Made by a program: the position numbers and the translations under genes. A model generated the notes under the pieces. The model searched no databases. It saw nothing but the letters and a program-made list of their open reading frames with translations, and was not told the DNA's origin. A stretch of 64,000 bases of DNA from Nocardioides deserti (GTDB lineage Bacteria; Actinomycetota; Actinomycetes; Propionibacteriales; Nocardioidaceae), in NCBI RefSeq assembly GCF_014266025.1, contig NZ_JACMYC010000015.1, forward strand, positions 1 through 64,000, in the 5' to 3' direction. The stretch's first letter is position 1. Every line of letters starts with the position of its first letter. This document shows positions 1 to 61,782 of this stretch, piece after piece.

Positions 1-807
1 ACCGCCGCGGCGTCGCTGGCCCAGCGCGCCGCCGGGCGGCGCGCGCCGCTGGTCACCACCGTGCATGGCCTGGCGGCCGAGGACTACCCGCGCGCCGCGC
101 GTCTGCTCCGCGGCTGCGCCGACGTCGTCGTCGCGGTCTCCGACGACGTGGCCGACCGGCTGCGCGACGGCGGGCTGCCCGCGGACCGGCTCCGCGTCGT
201 CGAGAACGCCGCGCCGGCGCTGCGCCTGCCCGGTCGGGCTGCGGCTCGCGCATCCCTCGGCCTGCCCGAGGACGCGCCGGTCGCGGTGAGCGTGGCCCGC
301 CTCGTGCCGCCCAAGCGCCACGACCTGCTCGTCGACGCCTGGACGCGGCTGCCGCACCCGGGGGCGGGTGCGGGTGCGCCCCTGCTCCTCGTCGCCGGCG
401 ACGGGGCCGGCCGCGCCGACCTCGAGCGACGGGTCGCCGCCGCGGGCGTCTCCGACCGGGTCCGCCTCCTCGGCGACCGTCGCGACGTCGACCGGCTGCT
501 CGCCGCCGCCGACCTGCTCGTGCTGGCCAGCGACCGTGAAGGGCTGCCGATGTCGGTGCTCGAGGCGATGACCGCCGGCGTGCCCGTGGCCGCGTCGGCC
601 GTCGGCGGGCTCACGTCGCTGGCCGGCGCGGTCGAGCTGGTGACCGAGCCGACCGCGGACGCGTGGGCCGGGGCCGTCCACCGCCTGCTCGAGGACCCCG
701 GACGCCGGGGCGACCTGGCCGCCGCGGCCGCCCTGCTCGTGGAGCAGCGGTTCTCCCCGGCGGCGATGACGGCGTCGTACGACGCGATCTACCGAGACGT
801 GACCTGA
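1..807 (+). CDS. GT4-family glycosyltransferase, 5' end outside window
   Basis: The reading frame is open from the first base and ends in TGA at 805-807, so the N-terminus lies before the window. The visible 268 residues are the C-terminal GT-B half of a glycosyltransferase group 1 enzyme. A second-domain start (SVARLVPPKRHDLLVDAW) is followed by an LLVAGDGAGR turn and the nucleotide-sugar-binding stretch LVLASDREGLPMSVLEAMTAG, which contains the family E-x7-E motif. Such enzymes move a sugar from a nucleotide donor to a lipid-linked or oligosaccharide acceptor at the cytoplasmic membrane. The neighbours are a Wzz-like protein and a second GT4 enzyme, so a role in exopolysaccharide or capsule repeat-unit assembly is likely. 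The donor and acceptor cannot be deduced. Confidence 0.88.
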   Translation, partial: TAAASLAQRAAGRRAPLVTTVHGLAAEDYPRAARLLRGCADVVVAVSDDVADRLRDGGLPADRLRVVENAAPALRLPGRAAARASLGLPEDAPVAVSVARLVPPKRHDLLVDAWTRLPHPGAGAGAPLLLVAGDGAGRADLERRVAAAGVSDRVRLLGDRRDVDRLLAAADLLVLASDREGLPMSVLEAMTAGVPVAASAVGGLTSLAGAVELVTEPTADAWAGAVHRLLEDPGRRGDLAAAAALLVEQRFSPAAMTASYDAIYRDVT

Positions 808-839
808 GAACGACCGGCACCACCATGGGGGGAAACACA

Positions 840-2108
840 ATGGAGCTGCACCAGATCGGCGGGGCGTTGTGGCGCCAACGCCTGCTCGTCCTGCTCGTGC
901 TGGCGGTGACGGCGGCCGCCGTGGCCGTCGGCGTGGCGCTGGCACCGAAGACCTACCGGGCCACGGCGGTGCTCGCGGCGGCCGCGGACCCGGCGACGCT
1001 GGAGTCGCCCGACGACCTCGACGCACTGCGCGGCACGCTCGCGGAGCTCGCGAGCAGCCGCGAGCTGCTCACCGAGGTCCAGGGCACGCTCGACGTCGAG
1101 CGCCAGGTCAGCGACCTGCGGTCGGCGGTCGACGCGGAGTGGGTCGGCGGCACGATCCTCATCCAGGTCGTCGCCGAGGACTCCGACCCGCAGGTCGCCG
1201 CGGACCTCGCCAACCGGGTCGCGGTCACGCTGCCGTACTACGACCCGAGCACCGACGCGTTCCGGTTCACCCAGACCAACGAGGCGCAGCCGCCGCGCAC
1301 CTACAGCAGCCCGAACCTGCTGCTCGCGATCGGCGGCGGTGCGGCGCTGGCGATCGTGCTGGCCGTCGTCGCCGCGGTCGCCCGCGACCGGCGCACCAGC
1401 ACCGTCGACGACGGGTCCGCGCTCGAGGAGGCGACCGGCGCACCGCTGCTCGCGCACGTCGGGGTCCCGCGGGACCCGACGACGCTGCCGGCGCTCTACC
1501 CCGGCACGGCCGCGGCCGACGTCTTCCGGCAGCTGCGCATCGCCCTCGAGGCCGAGGCGGCCGGTGCCCCGGTCAGCCGGGTGGTGGTCGCCGGCGTGAC
1601 ACCGGGCGAGGTCAACGTGTGGGTCGGGGCCAACCTGGCGATCTCGCTGGCCAACGTCGGCCGGACCGTGCTGCTCGTCGACGGCCGGATCGGTCCGCGC
1701 CACGGCCGGCCGATCGCCGCGGAGCCGGACACCCCGGGCCTCTTCGACGTGCTCGCCGGGACCGAGCTGTCCCGCGCGGTCAGTCCCGGCCCGGTCGAGC
1801 TGCTGAGCGTCCTGCCCGCCGGTGACGCGGGCTCCGAGCCGTACGAGTCGATGCTCGAGACGGTGTTCGCCGACAAGATGGCCGAGGCGGAGGCGACGTA
1901 CGACGTCGTCGTCGTGCTCGGGCCCGCCCTCGAGTCCTGCGACGACGCCCGGGTGATGGCCGCCCGCGGGGCGCTGCTCATGGTGGTGCCCGAGGGCCAG
2001 GTGTCCGCCGCCGCGCTCCGCGCCCACGCCGACCGGGTCCGCTCGGTCGGCGCCGGCCTGCTCGGCTCGGTGCTCGTGGGGCGCCGCGCCGAGCGGGTGC
2101 TCACCTAG
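840..2108 (+). CDS. Wzz/CpsD-like polysaccharide chain-length protein with degenerate kinase domain
   Basis: Residues 1-35 form an N-terminal membrane segment, followed by a Wzz-type periplasmic region. A second hydrophobic segment lies near residue 160 (LLLAIGGGAALAIVLAVVAA). The C-terminal half resembles the CpsD/BY-kinase ATPase fold (SRVVVAGVTPGEVNVWVGAN, then VLLVDGRI). In active members the Walker A loop reads roughly PGEGKST. Here it reads PGEVNVWV, so the lysine and the Ser/Thr are missing; the second Walker aspartate region is also altered and no C-terminal tyrosine cluster is present. This suggests a structural chain-length regulator without kinase activity. ATG 840 was chosen because a GGGGGGA sequence lies six bases upstream; ATG 825 is an in-frame alternative. 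It lies between two glycosyltransferases on the same strand. Confidence 0.75.
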   Translation: MELHQIGGALWRQRLLVLLVLAVTAAAVAVGVALAPKTYRATAVLAAAADPATLESPDDLDALRGTLAELASSRELLTEVQGTLDVERQVSDLRSAVDAEWVGGTILIQVVAEDSDPQVAADLANRVAVTLPYYDPSTDAFRFTQTNEAQPPRTYSSPNLLLAIGGGAALAIVLAVVAAVARDRRTSTVDDGSALEEATGAPLLAHVGVPRDPTTLPALYPGTAAADVFRQLRIALEAEAAGAPVSRVVVAGVTPGEVNVWVGANLAISLANVGRTVLLVDGRIGPRHGRPIAAEPDTPGLFDVLAGTELSRAVSPGPVELLSVLPAGDAGSEPYESMLETVFADKMAEAEATYDVVVVLGPALESCDDARVMAARGALLMVVPEGQVSAAALRAHADRVRSVGAGLLGSVLVGRRAERVLT

Positions 2109-2117
2109 GGGGCGGGC

Positions 2118-3341
2118 GTGCGCAGGCGACCGGGGCGCCCGGACGGCGGGATCCGCCGCCGGCTCCACGTGGCCCACGTGTCCGAGCCCGCGTCCGAGGG
2201 CGTGGCCGTGGTGCAGTACTCCTACATCCGCGAGCAGCTGCGGCGCGGCTGGCGGGTGACCGTCATCTGCCCGACCCACGGGTGGCTGGGCTACTCCGCG
2301 CGCGCCGCCGGCGCCGAGGTGCGCTGGTGGTCGGCGTCCCGCGGTCCGGGCCGCTCGGTGCTGGCCGAGACCGTCGAGCTGCGGCGCATCCTCGCCGAGG
2401 TCGACCCCGACGTCGTGCACCTGCACAGCGCCAAGGCCGGCCTGGCCGGCCGGCTCGCGGTGCGCGGCCGGCGGCCGACGATCTTCCAGCCGCACGCGTG
2501 GTCCTTCCTCGCCGTGGAGGGGTGGGTACGCCGTGCCTCGTTGCGGTGGGAGCAGCTCGCCGCGCGCTGGACGCACCGCCTCGTGTGCGTGGGCGAGGCC
2601 GAGCGGCTGGCCGGCGAGGAGGCCGGGATCGAGGTGCCGACGGTCGTGCTGCCCAACGGCGTGGACCTGCGAAGGCTGCAGCTGACGGAGCCGCACGAGC
2701 GGCTGGCCGCGCGGGCGGGGCTCGGGCTGCGCGACCTGCCGACTGCGGTCTGCGTGGGCCGGCTGGCGCGGCAGAAGGGGCAGGACGCGCTGCTCGACGC
2801 CTGGCCGTCGGTGCGGGAGCGGGTGCCGGACGCCCAGCTGGTGCTCGTCGGCGACGGGCCGGAGCGCTCGGCGCTCGAGCGGCGTGCCGCGGACCTCGAC
2901 GGCGTGCTGCTGGTCGGCGCGCGCACCGACGTGCCGCTGTGGCTGGCCGCGGCCGACGTCGTCGTCGCCCCGTCGCGCTGGGAGGGGATGGCGCTCGCGC
3001 CGCTCGAGGCGATGGCCTGCGGCCGCAGCGTGGTCGCCACCGCCGTCCCCGGGATCGCCGAGGCCGTGCCCGCCGAGGCGGGCCAGCTGGTGCCGTCCGG
3101 CGACGTCGCCGCGCTGGCCGACGCCGTGGTCTACCGGCTCGAGGCGCCGCAGGAGGCAGGCGAGGAGGGCTGGGCCGGGCGGTCCCACGTGGAGGACCAC
3201 CACGACGAGCTCAGCTCGGCGCGTCGGGTCCTCGACGTCTACCTGGCCGTGCTGCGGGAGCAGCGGGGCCGAGCCGCACGGCGCCGACCTCTCCCCGCGG
3301 TGCCCGGACGAGGACCGGGAGGGTCCGGCACAGGATCTTGA
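2118..3341 (+). CDS. GT4-family glycosyltransferase
   Basis: This 407-residue GT-B glycosyltransferase begins with GTG nine bases after the preceding stop. The N-terminal domain opens with LHVAHVSEPASEGVAVVQYS. The C-terminal domain has CVGRLARQKGQDALLDAW, LVLVGDGPERSALE and the donor-site stretch VVAPSRWEGMALAPLEAMAC with two conserved glutamates. It probably adds one sugar during assembly of the exopolysaccharide repeat. The last about 43 codons overlap the 3' end of the convergent sugar-transferase gene by 131 bases. The family usually ends near the helix LDVYLAVLREQ, so the Arg/Gly/Pro-rich tail after it looks like an extension read through into the neighbour. Confidence 0.9.
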   Translation: MRRRPGRPDGGIRRRLHVAHVSEPASEGVAVVQYSYIREQLRRGWRVTVICPTHGWLGYSARAAGAEVRWWSASRGPGRSVLAETVELRRILAEVDPDVVHLHSAKAGLAGRLAVRGRRPTIFQPHAWSFLAVEGWVRRASLRWEQLAARWTHRLVCVGEAERLAGEEAGIEVPTVVLPNGVDLRRLQLTEPHERLAARAGLGLRDLPTAVCVGRLARQKGQDALLDAWPSVRERVPDAQLVLVGDGPERSALERRAADLDGVLLVGARTDVPLWLAAADVVVAPSRWEGMALAPLEAMACGRSVVATAVPGIAEAVPAEAGQLVPSGDVAALADAVVYRLEAPQEAGEEGWAGRSHVEDHHDELSSARRVLDVYLAVLREQRGRAARRRPLPAVPGRGPGGSGTGS

Positions 3342-55771: not shown

Positions 55772-55846
55772 TCCCGGCGCTCGCTCCGCCGTCGGCACTC
55801 CGCCGTCGTCACTCCGTCGGTGGCGGGCCCTAGGCTCGCCCCCGAC

Positions 55847-57124
55847 ATGACGACCGAGGAGTTGTACGACGACGCCGACCGCGAGCGGCTCGTCCCGGAG
55901 CCGCCGAAGCGCGTCGACGCCCCGGAGCGCACCGCGTTCGAGCGGGACCGGGCCCGGGTGGTCCACGCGGCCGCGTCGCGGCGGCTGGCGGCGAAGACGC
56001 AGGTCGTCGACCCCCGGTCCGACGACTTCGTGCGCAACCGGCTCACCCACAGCCTCGAGGTCGCCCAGGTCGCCCGCGACCTGTCCCGGGCGCTGGGCAG
56101 CCAGCCGGACATCGCCGAGACCGCGGCGCTGGCGCACGACCTCGGGCACCCGCCGTTCGGGCACAACGGCGAGCGGGTGCTGGCGGAGCTGGCCGGGCCG
56201 TGCGGCGGGTTCGAGGGCAACGCCCAGACGCTGCGGTTGCTGACCCGGCTCGAGGCGAAGACCTTCGACGCCGCCGGCCGGTCGGTCGGGCTGAACCTGA
56301 CCCGCGCCACGCTCGACGCCTGCACGAAGTACCCGTGGCCGCGCGAGCGCGCCGAGGCACCCCAGGGGCACCACGCGGACGGGTCGCCGCGCGAGGTCAG
56401 CAAGTTCGGGGTGTACGCCGACGACCGGCCGGTCTTCGACTGGATGCGGGCCGGCTCCGCCGGGGAGCGGAAGTGCCTCGAGGCGCAGGTGATGGACCTC
56501 GCCGACGACGTCGCCTACTCCGTGCACGACATCGAGGACGGCATCGTCGCCGGCCGCGTCGACCTCACCCGGCTCGACACCGCCGCGGTCTGGGAGACGG
56601 TCCGCGACTGGTACGTCCCCGACGTCGACGACGCGCGCCTCGACGAGGTCCTCGCCGGGCTGCGGACGCAGGGGTCCTGGCCGGTCGCGCCCTACGACGG
56701 CAGCCGGCGCGGGCTGGCCGCGCTGAAGAACCTCACCAGCGACCTGATCGGCCGGTTCTGCGGCGCGGTGCAGCACGCGACGTACGCCGCGGGGGAGGGG
56801 CCGTTCGTCCGCTACCGCGCCGACCTGGTCGTCCCCGAGGCGACCCGGCTGGAGATGGCGGTGCTCAAGGGGATCGCCGCGCGCTACGTGATGCAGGCCG
56901 AGGACCGCGTGGCCCTGATGGACCGGCAGCGCGCGCTGCTGGCCGGGCTGGTCGCGGCGTTGGTCGAGCGGGGGCCGGACGGCCTGCAGCGGCCGTTCGC
57001 GGACGACTGGCGGGAGGCGGCCGACGACGCCGCACGGCTGCGGGTCGTCGTCGACCAGGTGGCGTCGCTGACCGACGCGAGCGCGGTCGCCTGGCACACG
57101 AGGCTGGTCGGCGCCGGGGACTGA
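55847..57124 (+). CDS. dgt: deoxyguanosinetriphosphate triphosphohydrolase-like protein
   Basis: The 425-residue HD-domain enzyme has the first metal motif RLTHSLEVAQVARDLSRALG near residue 65, the second AHDLGHPPFGHNGERVLAE near residue 95, and the Asp in QVMDLADDVAYSVHDIEDGI. Such enzymes cut dNTPs to nucleoside and triphosphate. ATG 55847 is used; GTG 55820 is in frame. Its usual neighbour is dnaG, and here one gene lies between. Confidence 0.95.
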   Translation: MTTEELYDDADRERLVPEPPKRVDAPERTAFERDRARVVHAAASRRLAAKTQVVDPRSDDFVRNRLTHSLEVAQVARDLSRALGSQPDIAETAALAHDLGHPPFGHNGERVLAELAGPCGGFEGNAQTLRLLTRLEAKTFDAAGRSVGLNLTRATLDACTKYPWPRERAEAPQGHHADGSPREVSKFGVYADDRPVFDWMRAGSAGERKCLEAQVMDLADDVAYSVHDIEDGIVAGRVDLTRLDTAAVWETVRDWYVPDVDDARLDEVLAGLRTQGSWPVAPYDGSRRGLAALKNLTSDLIGRFCGAVQHATYAAGEGPFVRYRADLVVPEATRLEMAVLKGIAARYVMQAEDRVALMDRQRALLAGLVAALVERGPDGLQRPFADDWREAADDAARLRVVVDQVASLTDASAVAWHTRLVGAGD

Positions 57125-57161: not shown

Positions 57162-58076
57162 ATGACCGACCGACTCGTCTGGCTGCCGTTCGACCCCGCC
57201 GAGCTGGGCGACCCGCCGGCGGGTCTGCGCTACGAGGTGGTCGACCCGACGCAGGAGGTCCCGGACTCGGTCGAGGACGTGCGGTTCTACGTGCCGCCGT
57301 ACCAGATGGGGCCGGCGATCGGAGACGTGCTGCCGCGCATGCGCGGCCTCGAGGTGGTGCAGCTGCTCTCGGCCGGCGTCGACAACGTGCGCTCGCGGGT
57401 GCCGGAGGGCGTCGCGCTGTGCAACGGCCGCGGCATCCACGACACCTCGACCGCCGAGCTCACGCTCGCGCTGGTGCTGGCGTCCCTGCGGGGCATCCCG
57501 GACTTCGTCCGCGCCCAGGACCGTCGCGAGTGGACGCCCGGCTGGCGGCCGGCGCTCGCGGACCGGAAGGTCCTGCTGGTCGGCCACGGCGCGATCGGCG
57601 AGGCGATCGAGACCCGGCTGCTGCCGTTCGAGGTCGAGGTCGTCCGCGTCGCGCGCACGGCCCGCGACGGCGTGCACCCGGTCGAGGATCTGCCGGCGCT
57701 GCTGCCCGACGCCGACGTCGTCATCCTCGTCGTGCCGCTCACCGACGCCACGCGCGGTCTGGTGGACGCCGACTTCCTCGCCCGGATGAAGGAGGGCGCG
57801 CTGCTCGTCAACGTCGCCCGCGGAGCCGTCGTGGTGACCGACGACCTGGTCGCCGCGCTGCACTCCGGTCGCGTCCGCGCGGCGATCGACGTGGCCGAGA
57901 CCGAGCCGCTGCCGGCCGACAGCCCGCTCTGGGACGCGCCGGGGCTGCTCGTCAGCCCGCACGTCGGCGGGGCGAGCAGCGCGATGTGGCCGCGGGCCCA
58001 CCGGCTGGTGCGCGACCAGCTGCACCGGTACGCCGCGGGCGAGCCTCTCCACAACCTGATGACCGGCGAGTACTGA
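57162..58076 (+). CDS. D-2-hydroxyacid dehydrogenase
   Basis: The protein has 304 residues. The NAD-binding loop is KVLLVGHGAIGEAIETRL. The catalytic residues are Arg in LLVNVARGAVVVTDDLVAAL, Glu in IDVAETEPLPADSPLW and His in LLVSPHVGGASSAMWPRAHR. The substrate is unknown; family members reduce pyruvate, glyoxylate or similar 2-oxoacids. ATG 57162 is used. It lies between dgt and dnaG, on the same strand, 28 bases before dnaG. Confidence 0.93.
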   Translation: MTDRLVWLPFDPAELGDPPAGLRYEVVDPTQEVPDSVEDVRFYVPPYQMGPAIGDVLPRMRGLEVVQLLSAGVDNVRSRVPEGVALCNGRGIHDTSTAELTLALVLASLRGIPDFVRAQDRREWTPGWRPALADRKVLLVGHGAIGEAIETRLLPFEVEVVRVARTARDGVHPVEDLPALLPDADVVILVVPLTDATRGLVDADFLARMKEGALLVNVARGAVVVTDDLVAALHSGRVRAAIDVAETEPLPADSPLWDAPGLLVSPHVGGASSAMWPRAHRLVRDQLHRYAAGEPLHNLMTGEY

Positions 58077-58104: not shown

Positions 58105-60942
58105 GTGGCAGGCCTGATCCGCGAGGAGAGCATCGCCGAGGTGCGCGAGAAGGCGCGCATCGATGACGTGGTCGCCGAGCACGTCACGCTCCGCAACGCC
58201 GGTGGCGGCTCCATGAAGGGGTTGTGCCCCTTCCACGACGAGAAGTCCCCGTCGTTCCACGTCACGCCGAGCCGGGGGTTCTTCCACTGCCTGGCCGGCG
58301 AGACCCGGGTCCTCACATACGACGGGCCGCGTCCGATCGCGGACCTGGCCGGGGGCACCCACCGCATCCTCGGCGTTCGCGGCAACTGGATCGAGGCGCC
58401 GTTCAAGTCGTACGGCGTCCAACCGCTGATGCGTATCACCGTCGGCCGCAATCGCCAGGTGAAGGACCTTCATGCGACCGACGAGCACCGCTGGTTCGTT
58501 CGCACTGACAACGGCAGTGGGCACCGGGAGGTGCTCACCAAGGACTTGAAGCCGGGTGACCGGCTGGTCCCGAAGTTCCCTCGCTCGCGCATACAACGCA
58601 CGACGCCGTCGCCCTTCGGCATCGCCCACGGCTTCACCTACGGTGACGGGACGCGCAGCGGCACCGGCAGCATGGCGCTGCTCTGTCCGCCCAAGGACCT
58701 CGCGATGCTCAAGTGGTTCCCCAACAGCCACACCAGTGCGTCGGGCGACAACCTCCTGGTCCACCACTTGCCGGCGTTCTTCAAGGACCGTCCTCCGCTG
58801 GGCGAGTCGGTGTCGTACCTGTACGGGTGGCTTGCTGGCTACTTCGCTGCAGACGGGTGCGTGGCCAGCGACGGCACCGTGATGCTGAACTCGGCCGACC
58901 GCGAGGACCTCGAGTTCGTGCGGACGGTCTGCACGCGGCTCGGCATCGCGACGTACGGAATCACCACCCAGCTGCGAGAGGGGTTCCCGGGCCGGGAGCC
59001 GTCCGAGCTGCACCGGGTGCATCTCGTGAATGAGGACCTCACTGAGTCGTTCTTCCTTCTTGACCAGCACCGACAGCGCTTCGTCGATGCGGACAAGAAG
59101 TTCGCGCGTCGCGGATGGGTGGTCCGGGCCGTCGAGACGACCGACCGGGTGGAGGAGGTGTTCTGCGCCGAGGTCGAGGACGGGCACGCCTTCACCCTCG
59201 AGGACAACATCCTCACCGGCAACTGCTTCGGCTGCCAGGCCGGCGGCGACGTCATCAAGTTCGTGATGGACATCGACGCGCTGTCCTTCGCCGAGGCCGT
59301 CGAGCGGCTGGCCGACAAGTACGGCGTGCAGCTGCGGCGTGAGGAGGGCGACGTCCGCGACGACCGCCCGAAGGGGCCCCAGCGCGGCCGCCTCGTCGAG
59401 GCGCACAAGGTCGCCCAGCAGTTCTACGCCGAGCAGCTCGCGACGCCCGACGCCCTGGTCGCCCGGCAGTTCCTCGCCGAGCGCGGCTTCGACCAGTCCG
59501 CGGCCGAGACGTTCGGCATCGGCTTCGCCCCGCGCGACGGCGACGCGCTTTTCAAGCACCTGCGCCAGCTGGCGTTCTCCCAGGAGGAGCTGGTCGTCGG
59601 CGGCCTCGTCGCGGTCGGCCGGTCGGCGTACGACCGCTTCCGCGGGCGCCTGCTCTGGCCGATCCGCGACGCCAGCGGCGACACCATCGGCTTCGGCGCG
59701 CGACGGATCTTCGACGACGACCGCATCGACGCGAAGTACCTCAACACCTCCGAGACCCCGATCTACAAGAAGAGCCAGGTGCTCTACGGCATCGACCTGG
59801 CGCGCAAGGACATGGCGCGGTCGAGCCAGGCGGTCGTGGTCGAGGGCTACACCGACGTGATGGCCTGCCACCTGGCCGGCGTGACGAGCGCGGTGGCCAC
59901 CTGCGGCACCGCCTTCGGCGACGAGCACGCGCGGGTGCTGCGACGGTTCATGAACGACCACGAGGAGTTCCGCGGCGAGGTGATCTTCGCCTTCGACGGC
60001 GACGCCGCCGGGCAGAAGGCCGCGCTGCGCACCTTCAGCGGCGACCAGAACTTCGTGTCCCAGACCTACGTCGCGGTCGAGCCCGACGGCCTGGACCCGT
60101 GCGACCTGCGGATCAAGCAGGGCGACGCGGCCGTCCGCGAGCTGGTGGCCCGCCGGGTCCCGCTCTACCGCTTCGTGCTGTCCAACGTCGTCGGGAAGTA
60201 CGACCTCGACCGCGCCGACAGCCGGGTCGACGCGCTTCGCGAGGGCGCCCGGCTCGTCTCCAGCATCCGCGACAAGTCCAAGGTCGACGCCTTCGCGCGC
60301 GAGCTGGCCGGCATGGTCGGCATCGACGTCGACCAGGCGCGTGCGGAGGTACGCCGTGCGGCCGCGCGCGGCCCCGTCAGGGCCGACCAGCGGGGGAGCC
60401 GCCGCGGAGAGCCCCAGCAGCCGGACACCTCGGCGCCGCCGGCCCCGCGCAACCCGGTCCCGGACCTGCGCGACCCCCGCTTCGCCCTCGAGCGCGAGAC
60501 GCTCAAGCTGGTCATCCAGCACCCGATGGCGATCGGGCGCACCACCTCCGACATCGGCGTCGAGGACTTCACCCACCCGGTCTACCGCGCGGTCTGGGAG
60601 CTGGTCGCCGCGGCGGGTGGGCCCGTCGCCGGGTCGGGCGACGCGACGTGGGCCGGCCGCCTGCGCGACGCCGCCACCGACCCCGCGGTCTCGTCGGCGA
60701 TCAGCGCGCTGGGCGTCGAGCCGATCCGCACCGCAAAGGAGCCGGACGCGGCGTACGTCTCGGTCCACGTCTTCCGCCTGCTCGAGCTCACCGCCATGCG
60801 CCGCATCGCCGACCTGAAGTCGAAGCTCCAGCGCACCAACCCGGTCGAGAACGCCGCCGAGTACAACCGGATGTTCGGCGAGCTCGCCGCCCTCGAGCAG
60901 CACCGCCGCACCCTGCGCGAGCGCACGGTCGGTGCGTCGTGA
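58105..60942 (+). CDS. dnaG: DNA primase DnaG with in-frame intein
   Basis: The precursor has 945 residues; removing the 312-residue intein gives a 633-residue primase of normal length. The N-terminal zinc domain (GLCPFHDEKSPSFHVTPSRG) is interrupted after FFH61, and its second ligand pair (CFGCQAGGDVIKF) resumes at residue 374. A Toprim domain follows (VVVEGYTDVMACHLAGVTSA, IFAFDGDAAGQKAA) near residues 579-635. The C-terminal helicase-binding part covers about residues 790-945. Primase lays RNA primers for replication. GTG 58105 starts the gene. The zinc ligands lie on both sides of the intein. Confidence 0.97.
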   Translation: MAGLIREESIAEVREKARIDDVVAEHVTLRNAGGGSMKGLCPFHDEKSPSFHVTPSRGFFHCLAGETRVLTYDGPRPIADLAGGTHRILGVRGNWIEAPFKSYGVQPLMRITVGRNRQVKDLHATDEHRWFVRTDNGSGHREVLTKDLKPGDRLVPKFPRSRIQRTTPSPFGIAHGFTYGDGTRSGTGSMALLCPPKDLAMLKWFPNSHTSASGDNLLVHHLPAFFKDRPPLGESVSYLYGWLAGYFAADGCVASDGTVMLNSADREDLEFVRTVCTRLGIATYGITTQLREGFPGREPSELHRVHLVNEDLTESFFLLDQHRQRFVDADKKFARRGWVVRAVETTDRVEEVFCAEVEDGHAFTLEDNILTGNCFGCQAGGDVIKFVMDIDALSFAEAVERLADKYGVQLRREEGDVRDDRPKGPQRGRLVEAHKVAQQFYAEQLATPDALVARQFLAERGFDQSAAETFGIGFAPRDGDALFKHLRQLAFSQEELVVGGLVAVGRSAYDRFRGRLLWPIRDASGDTIGFGARRIFDDDRIDAKYLNTSETPIYKKSQVLYGIDLARKDMARSSQAVVVEGYTDVMACHLAGVTSAVATCGTAFGDEHARVLRRFMNDHEEFRGEVIFAFDGDAAGQKAALRTFSGDQNFVSQTYVAVEPDGLDPCDLRIKQGDAAVRELVARRVPLYRFVLSNVVGKYDLDRADSRVDALREGARLVSSIRDKSKVDAFARELAGMVGIDVDQARAEVRRAAARGPVRADQRGSRRGEPQQPDTSAPPAPRNPVPDLRDPRFALERETLKLVIQHPMAIGRTTSDIGVEDFTHPVYRAVWELVAAAGGPVAGSGDATWAGRLRDAATDPAVSSAISALGVEPIRTAKEPDAAYVSVHVFRLLELTAMRRIADLKSKLQRTNPVENAAEYNRMFGELAALEQHRRTLRERTVGAS
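58288..59223 (+). mobile_element. DnaG intein with degenerate homing endonuclease region
   Basis: The 312-residue intein covers precursor residues 62-373. Block A starts CLAGETRVLTYDG. Block B reads HATDEHRWFVR, with Thr125, His128 and Trp130. A LAGLIDADG-type motif LAGYFAADG is at 243-251; a second one is not evident. Block F reads VFCAEVEDGHAF with Cys354, where class 1 inteins usually have Asp. Block G ends LTGN-C with Thr371, Gly372 where His is usual, Asn373 and +1 Cys374. Trp, Cys and Thr at these places are the class 3 triplet, yet Cys1 is also present. Base use is less GC-rich than in the exteins. Confidence 0.93.
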
Positions 60943-61498: not shown

Positions 61499-61571
61499 TC
61501 CCCTGTAGCTCAACTGGCAGAGCATTCGGCTGTTAACCGGAGGGTTGTTGGTTCGAGTCCAACCGGGGGAG
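61499..61571 (+). tRNA. tRNA-Asn(GTT)
   Basis: A cloverleaf of 73 bases can be drawn. The acceptor stem TCCCCTG pairs with CGGGGGA. The anticodon loop CTGTTAA carries GTT. The T-arm has GGTTCGAGTCC and the discriminator is G. CCA is not encoded. A hairpin terminator follows. Confidence 0.93.
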
Positions 61572-61577
61572 CAGAGC

Positions 61578-61686: not shown

Positions 61687-61760
61687 GGGGCGTTAGCTCA
61701 GTCGGTCAGAGCAAGGGACTCATAATCCCTGGGTCGTGGGTTCGAGCCCCACACGCCCTA
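61687..61760 (+). tRNA. tRNA with CAT anticodon (Met, or Ile2)
   Basis: A cloverleaf of 74 bases has acceptor stem GGGGCGT with ACGCCCT (first pair G-U), D-arm GCTCAGTCGGTCAGAGC, anticodon loop CTCATAA with CAT, and T-arm GTGGGTTCGAGCCCCAC. The discriminator is A and CCA is not encoded. Elongator Met and lysidine-modified Ile2 tRNAs share this anticodon, so the identity is not settled. It is not an initiator type, because the three G-C pairs at the anticodon stem base are missing. Confidence 0.9.
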
Positions 61761-61782
61761 CCCGGTTCGGCAGTCGCTCGGC

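Follow-up and report, generated by a model that had tools for sequence, protein, structure and literature searches.

Which splicing route is taken by an intein that carries both Cys1, a nucleophile of class 1 inteins, and the Trp-Cys-Thr (WCT) triplet of class 3 inteins? The question is raised by the dnaG primase gene of Nocardioides deserti, located in a stretch of 64,000 nucleotides (NCBI RefSeq assembly GCF_014266025.1, contig NZ_JACMYC010000015.1, positions 1 to 64,000 of the forward strand), which we refer to as the window. A sequence-only reading of this DNA had placed a 312-residue intein at 58288-59223, interrupting the zinc domain of the primase, and had suggested from its mixed residues an affinity to class 3 and perhaps a transitional splicing route. 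The intein itself is borne out by the reading frame, Pfam and empty insertion sites; we predict, with a probability of about 0.7, that it is a homing intein of class 1, initiated by Cys1, whose Trp-Cys-Thr triplet is no mark of class 3. Rather than a transitional individual, it is part of a large, stable lineage with a near-invariant Cys1 and, judged by sequence comparison, a well conserved, widespread homing intein orthologous to the DnaG intein of Nocardioides sp. JS614.

This prediction is carried by the conservation of residue 1. In the aligned parts of the splicing domain, no positions other than Cys1, His B:10 and Cys F:4 are invariant across the lineage rows compared (183/183; mean pairwise identity 41%), and Cys1 is taken as the starting nucleophile because a dispensable cysteine would be expected to vary, as residue 1 of class 3 inteins does. 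Among the DnaG inteins, Cys1, Thr B:7, His B:10, Trp B:12, Cys F:4, Thr G:5, Gly G:6, the terminal Asn and Cys+1 are each present in 70/70 rows; because Cys1 and the triplet are kept in every complete DnaG copy compared, their combination is not due to chance. The codons of the three cysteines are mixed (TGC/TGT 57/9, 61/5 and 55/11 among 66 loci), so that it is the amino acid that is kept and not the codon.

The primase intein and its distribution

The gene and the residues on which the argument turns are the following.

58105..60942, forward strand: dnaG primase gene with intein; open frame throughout, encoding a 945-residue precursor, 633 residues once spliced.
58105..58287, forward strand: N-extein, with Cys41 and His44 in the first half of the CHC2 zinc ribbon (Pfam Zn_ribbon_DnaG).
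58288..59223, forward strand: intein of 312 residues, a splicing domain with inserted LAGLIDADG endonuclease (Pfam, predicted structure, empty sites).
58288..58290, forward strand: Cys1, which is Cys62 of the precursor (residue alignment).
58477..58479, forward strand: Thr B:7 (residue 125), of the class 1 type TxxH (alignment; available part of PMC12245125).
58486..58488, forward strand: His B:10 (residue 128; residue alignment).
58492..58494, forward strand: Trp B:12 (residue 130; residue alignment).
58618..58650, forward strand: first LAGLIDADG-like motif, GIAHGFTYGDG (assigned by eye).
58825..58857, forward strand: second LAGLIDADG motif, GWLAGYFAADG (sequence, Pfam).
59164..59166, forward strand: Cys F:4 (residue 354; residue alignment).
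59215..59223, forward strand: Thr G:5 (371), Gly G:6 (372) and Asn G:7 (373; residue alignment).
59224..59226, forward strand: Cys+1, which doubles as third zinc ligand of the primase (alignment, empty sites).
59224..60942, forward strand: C-extein with the remaining zinc ribbon and the RNA polymerase core, Toprim and DnaB-binding domains (Pfam).

The intein comprises precursor residues 62-373, inserted after residue 61 of DnaG. Its borders are exact, because intein-free primases run straight across the site: an uninterrupted H-CFGC or K-CFGC is found there in all five intein-free Nocardioides primases examined, and when the window primase is aligned with intein-free genomes, the match is interrupted near residues 62 and 373. 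The exteins hold the split DnaG zinc ribbon and the DNAG_N, Toprim and DnaB-binding domains of Pfam, while the insert matches LAGLIDADG_3 (2.9e-8) and Intein_splicing (7.7e-7; 29.5 bits, under the Pfam cut-off of 35.8). The predicted structure of the intein (predicted local distance difference test [pLDDT] 95.7, predicted template modeling score [pTM] 0.91) matches intein-endonucleases along its whole length, best PI-PfuI (Z 22.6, 297 residues, 3.0 Å), so that model, fold match and Pfam all reveal the HINT splicing fold with an inserted endonuclease that marks a LAGLIDADG homing intein; the precursor with its exteins, modeled from one sequence, reached a mean pLDDT of only 36.1. The alignment, which the sequence-only reading had named as the check that could overturn it, confirms Trp, Cys and Thr at B:12, F:4 and G:5, including the numbering of Cys354 and Thr371, and shows Cys1 and the penultimate Gly to be real. 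In CHC2 zinc ribbons, the residues corresponding to Cys41, His44 and Cys+1 are zinc ligands, and the zinc site of the primase is formed only once the intein has been spliced out. With an essential zinc site divided by the intein, one may speculate that splicing responds to zinc or oxidation.

The DnaG intein is no oddity. Counting its own genome, matches occur in 26 of 215 Nocardioides genomes (22 full length, one at a contig end and three without most of the endonuclease), and a scan of named genomes yielded 68 further loci in hosts that include Nocardioides, Jiangella, Actinocatenispora, Geodermatophilaceae, other actinobacterial metagenome-assembled genomes, Azospirillum, Novosphingobium and Sphingomonas. 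Two truncated loci among these (L082, L097) were left out of the counts; the complete ones all keep the dnaG zinc-ribbon flanks, Cys1 and the triplet (66/66) and, with the window, JS614, G048 and G083, make up the set of 70 DnaG rows. One locus (L056), with a dnaG intein resembling those of Geodermatophilaceae, comes from a record titled Bacillus sp. AZ43 (UNVERIFIED_ORG), an organism label that is doubtful. The patchy occurrence within Nocardioides (26/215) is consistent with homing, and no more. In two Nocardioides alleles (L017, L019), a LAGLIDADG motif is altered at an acidic position (GNG; AAGG), which suggests decay of the endonuclease. Mini-inteins of 145-209 residues account for 11 of the 70 DnaG rows, and the complete ones have Cys1 without exception (11/11). 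In Nocardioides and Geodermatophilaceae, the dnaG site holds eleven natural mini-inteins with little or no endonuclease (L024, L025, L088-L096); the natural mini-intein of G048 has 154 residues.

The lead to Nocardioides sp. JS614 proved sound: an allele from another species, its DnaG intein occupies the same site, is 82% identical and shares Cys1, W, C, T, G, N and Cys+1. The genome in question was recognized as that of JS614 because it contains bases 1-3000 of the JS614 plasmid record at 100% identity. Intein_Cterm matched only two proteins of JS614, DnaG and one read as DnaB, and with intein_Nterm and the A5 profile DnaG was the sole match. The JS614 "TOPRIM" intein of the literature is therefore almost surely this DnaG allele, as judged from these matches, since only DnaG and the presumed DnaB gave any. 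The intein in DnaB, with Ala1, W, C, T, His and Ser+1, belongs to the class 3 type. The TOPRIM intein is reported to be among three mixed-motif inteins in the work of Tori and Perler of 2011, and the mixed signature of the DnaG intein has reportedly been described before. A search of open-access papers found none that pairs an intein with Nocardioides, with or without TOPRIM. The available part of PMC5222942, a later paper by these authors, puts Ser or Thr at the +1 position of class 3 inteins and names Bvi IcmO as the sole exception with Cys+1 known at the time; the JS614 intein, which has Cys+1, was thus seemingly not counted as class 3 by them.

Relatives in phages and on a plasmid

The window intein matched 143 records of a phage collection at E up to 0.1; among the 60 listed, every functionally annotated one is a ribonucleotide reductase (RNR), with Thermobifida phage P318 first. 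For an endonuclease-free DnaG mini-intein, the 25 listed of 161 phage matches comprise 18 annotated RNRs, two terminases (E 4 and 6) and five without telling annotation. A scan of viral contigs with a single protein query found nothing; alignment-based queries did find relatives, and an eight-row profile gave 120, of which 80 loci were kept. On a plasmid of Skermanella rosea, a MobF relaxase carries a related Cys1-WCT intein (L115, 3001-3927) with 45% identity to that of the window, inserted at a CHC2-like zinc Cys. Ten hosts (nine viral, one genome) were assigned from flanks and Pfam as five primase/Toprim proteins, two RNRs and three without a host-domain match, and the residue after the intein is Cys in 10/10. 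A viral ribonucleotide reductase (L289, 1249-3921) apparently has a second intein (Pfam Intein_splicing, residues 607-884) beside its Cys1-WCT one.

Viral loci entered in the residue tables number 72/80 for the class 3 type, 43/57 for NrdA and 64/80 for the set labeled A4; the others were excluded by hand, mostly as near-copies, incomplete or ragged-end matches. The "vir" set consists of 63 viral and two genome loci, with the A4 row L335, which contains stops, excluded. Its 65 rows all have Cys1, Thr B:7, Trp B:12 and Cys F:4, and most have Thr G:5 (52), Gly G:6 (46) and Cys+1 (64). The Cys1-WCT inteins of phage primases, phage RNRs, P318 and the Skermanella MobF protein thus share lineage and residues with the DnaG intein, several of them at a zinc-ribbon-like Cys, but differ in their hosts, in laxer G:5 and G:6 positions and, in some excluded rows, in Ser+1. 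Fixation of Cys1 by homing or by a single insertion site was considered and is ruled out, since mini-inteins and inteins of other hosts such as RNRs keep it.

Phage NrdA inteins (ICP1, SP3, PG07 and relatives; 45 rows after addition of two, near-identical rows remaining) likewise have Cys1 (45), TxxH (Thr B:7 in 44), Cys F:4 (45), mostly Gly G:6 and mostly Cys+1 (43). They differ from the DnaG intein at B:12, which is Phe in 37 and Trp in eight, and in a common C-terminal Gln (31/45). In a quick tree of 41 NrdA rows (seven with Trp), Trp and Phe at B:12 switched at least six times, of which the starred branches force four; Trp B:12 therefore comes and goes. Trp B:12 and Thr G:5 thus also occur in the Cys1 lineage, and they are no proof of class 3 chemistry.

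Relation to class 3 inteins

The sequence-only reading was not upheld in its proposed kinship with class 3, since the intein falls outside the clade of class 3 rows and is without Asp B:7, His G:6 and Ser/Thr+1. The class 3-type set numbers 82 after addition of ten rows (eight phage, JS614 DnaB and G083 DnaB), and in 20/82 position 1 was read as the residue before the match (18 late-starting matches, L120 and L124). Residue 1 is unconserved in this set (A59, P9, G7, L3, C2, R1, S1), and Asp B:7 (74/82), His G:6 (81/82) and Ser/Thr+1 (82/82) prevail; a contrast between TxxH in class 1 DnaE and DxxH in class 3 has been published (PMC12245125, available part). Class 3 inteins, found in DnaB, TerL, RecB-like and similar hosts, accordingly resemble the DnaG intein in Trp B:12, Cys F:4, Thr G:5 and the C-terminal Asn and differ from it in these other positions and in forming a separate clade. 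Cys1 or Ser1 appears in L188, LW81 TerL and Morizzled23 gp211 (3/82). A nucleophile at position 1 is sporadic in class 3-type inteins such as L188, L121 and L124, which have a THN end and Thr+1.

Two trees were built, of 102 and of 97 rows that were in part drawn at random, the second lacking five rows (four long branches and one duplicate); 11 marker columns were removed for the trees and for the profile test. In the careful tree (97 rows, 103 columns), the 28 class 3 rows form one side of a branch (100/99), and in this form the block tree that had been proposed as a check places the DnaG inteins apart from them. The 52 rows with Cys1 and Cys F:4 likewise fall together on one side of a branch (98/94.7). 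Of 30 class 1 loci, 20 passed a C-terminal pattern and were kept. The profiles give the same picture: DnaG rows score on average 2.7 bits with class 3, 26.2 with NrdA and 21.4 with class 1, and the best profile is NrdA for 53, class 1 for 17 and class 3 for none of the 70, compared with 35, 30 and none of the 65 "vir" rows. With all columns kept, NrdA is best for 70/70 DnaG rows, and comparison of whole profiles gives E 1.9e-18 to phage NrdA inteins versus 8.7e-6 to class 3; the phage matches of the endonuclease-free DnaG mini-intein point the same way. On clade, profile scores and residue table together, membership of class 3 by descent is rejected. The DnaG intein has the triplet of class 3 and none of its free position 1, Ser/Thr+1 or clade membership, and it has the constrained Cys1, TxxH block B, C-terminal Asn and +1 nucleophile of class 1. 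Class 2 (KlbA type), which has no nucleophile at position 1, is ruled out by Cys1. The 29 PDB sequences retrieved with a sequence profile (E up to 10) included class 1 inteins, homing endonucleases, unrelated proteins and the gp41-1 graft discussed below; no chain among them was recognized as class 3, an absence that shows little.

These results bear on how inteins are classified. Assignment by the Trp-Cys-Thr triplet alone, as in the available part of PMC5050341, would misfile the whole lineage, and a screen that defines class 3 by the lack of an N-terminal Cys together with Cys F:4, as given in the available part of PMC7891396, omits the Cys1-WCT group.

The proposed splicing route and its alternatives

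We envisage a mobile, bifunctional intein at a conserved primase site, directly before the third zinc-ligand Cys, whose LAGLIDADG endonuclease would spread it into intein-free dnaG copies. Splicing would follow the class 1 route: Thr B:7 and His B:10 would activate the N-terminal junction, Cys1 would make a linear thioester, the N-extein would be transferred to Cys+1, and Asn would cyclize with Gly replacing the penultimate His, so that the mature zinc ribbon would form only after splicing. Cys F:4, at the place of Asp in most class 1 inteins, probably assists the transfer to Cys+1. A working precedent for Cys1 combined with Cys F:4 and Thr-Gly-Asn is offered by the mycobacteriophage RDF intein. 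It splices to completion, has been handled as a class 1 intein and is slowed when its penultimate Gly is changed to His (PMC5050341, available part). By eye, this intein (Bethlehem gp51 type), which we matched through Arg157 and the penultimate Gly316 in phage Zeeculate gp49 (317 residues), shares Cys1, Cys F:4 and a Thr-Gly-Asn end with the DnaG intein and differs in Val B:12, Ser+1 and a distant sequence.

Several observations count against class 1 splicing started by Cys1, or limit the evidence for it. Cys F:4 is as invariant as Cys1, which is stricter than an auxiliary role requires. An approximately unbiased test did not reject a sister relation to class 3, in a tree with all WCT inteins, class 3 included, on one side (p 0.457), and the bootstrap of the careful tree is not fully settled. 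By fold the classes are indistinguishable, with chains of class 1 and of class 3 tied at Z about 17-18, and the RDF intein is weak with every profile (13.0 bits at best), a distant relation. Rows were gathered with short patterns, using a block B or F word for the DnaG rows and a block F word for some of the phage rows, which favors W and C; Cys1 was part of one NrdA search word and is thereby favored in NrdA. It was absent from the DnaG and viral search words, where local alignments from residue 1 slightly favor a matching first residue. Among the 31 lineage rows excluded by hand (16 A4, 14 NrdA and L335), 29 have Cys1 and two, L342 and L252, break the rule. L342 (about 1486-2490) is a divergent viral relative with, by eye, Ser1, Gln B:12, Cys F:4, Thr-His-Asn and Ser+1, neither of DnaG type nor class 3; it is the only readable lineage row with a residue other than Cys at position 1, and Ser is a class 1 nucleophile too. 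L252 (1501-2418), of viral NrdA type, has stops upstream and neither His B:10 nor Cys F:4, and looks decayed. Three further rows (L267, L318, L326) have Cys1 and Trp but Ser+1, and L315 is cut. Cys1 and Cys F:4 are thus near-invariant rather than absolutely fixed, and among phage rows Cys+1 varies more than the residue table suggests.

The strictness of Cys F:4 would be explained by a three-cysteine relay or dual entry, in which the Cys1 thioester passes to Cys F:4, forming a block F branched intermediate, and from there to Cys+1, with both intein cysteines required. Such a relay would fit the invariance of both in 183 rows, whereas 19/20 actinobacterial rows labeled class 1 have Asp F:4, and it would fit that the DnaG rows, without exception, have W and T, which accompany Cys F:4 in class 3 inteins. 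Against it, no block F branched intermediate is known to us for a Cys1 intein, although no search was aimed at one, and we regard the relay as a minor possibility. Cys is moreover the second commonest F:4 residue in inteins at large, according to the available part of PMC4031507, so that no special role is needed. It is unlikely that the intein is a true class 3 intein with Cys1 as a dispensable leftover, despite its complete triplet, the few class 3-type rows with Cys1 or Ser1 and the single WCT clade left standing by the approximately unbiased test: a dispensable residue should vary, yet Cys1 persists in the compared and nearly all excluded rows, the DnaG intein falls outside the class 3 clade and never scores best with its profile, and it departs from class 3 in having Cys+1, Thr B:7 and Gly G:6. 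An engineered intein argues in the same direction. When W and C were grafted onto gp41-1, a class 1 intein in which Thr is present, and Cys1 was changed to Ala, the product showed mostly C-cleavage and no N-cleavage (PMC7664689, available part); the triplet alone is therefore insufficient for a class 3 intein.

A degenerate or non-splicing intein, at which the missing penultimate His and the Intein_splicing score under the Pfam cut-off might hint, is very improbable. The primase query has only one match in its own genome at E <= 1e-10 and the intein splits the zinc ribbon, so that splicing must work if dnaG is essential, as is expected of this gene, and the catalytic residues are kept in 70/70 copies. 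The RDF intein demonstrates that a penultimate Gly can be functional (PMC5050341, available part). All three possible nucleophiles are retained in the lineage, which makes the role of Cys F:4 beside Cys1 testable in one natural protein and bears on the origin of class 3.

Apart from dnaG, a Nocardioides DnaB in genome G162 apparently has two inteins (L099, L108), with the frame broken in both; this genome is 61% complete, and sequencing errors are possible. In the window, genes for an HD-domain protein (55820-57124) and a 2-hydroxyacid dehydrogenase (57162-58076) lie before dnaG, and tRNA-Asn and tRNA-Met genes come after it, at 61499-61572 and 61687-61762.

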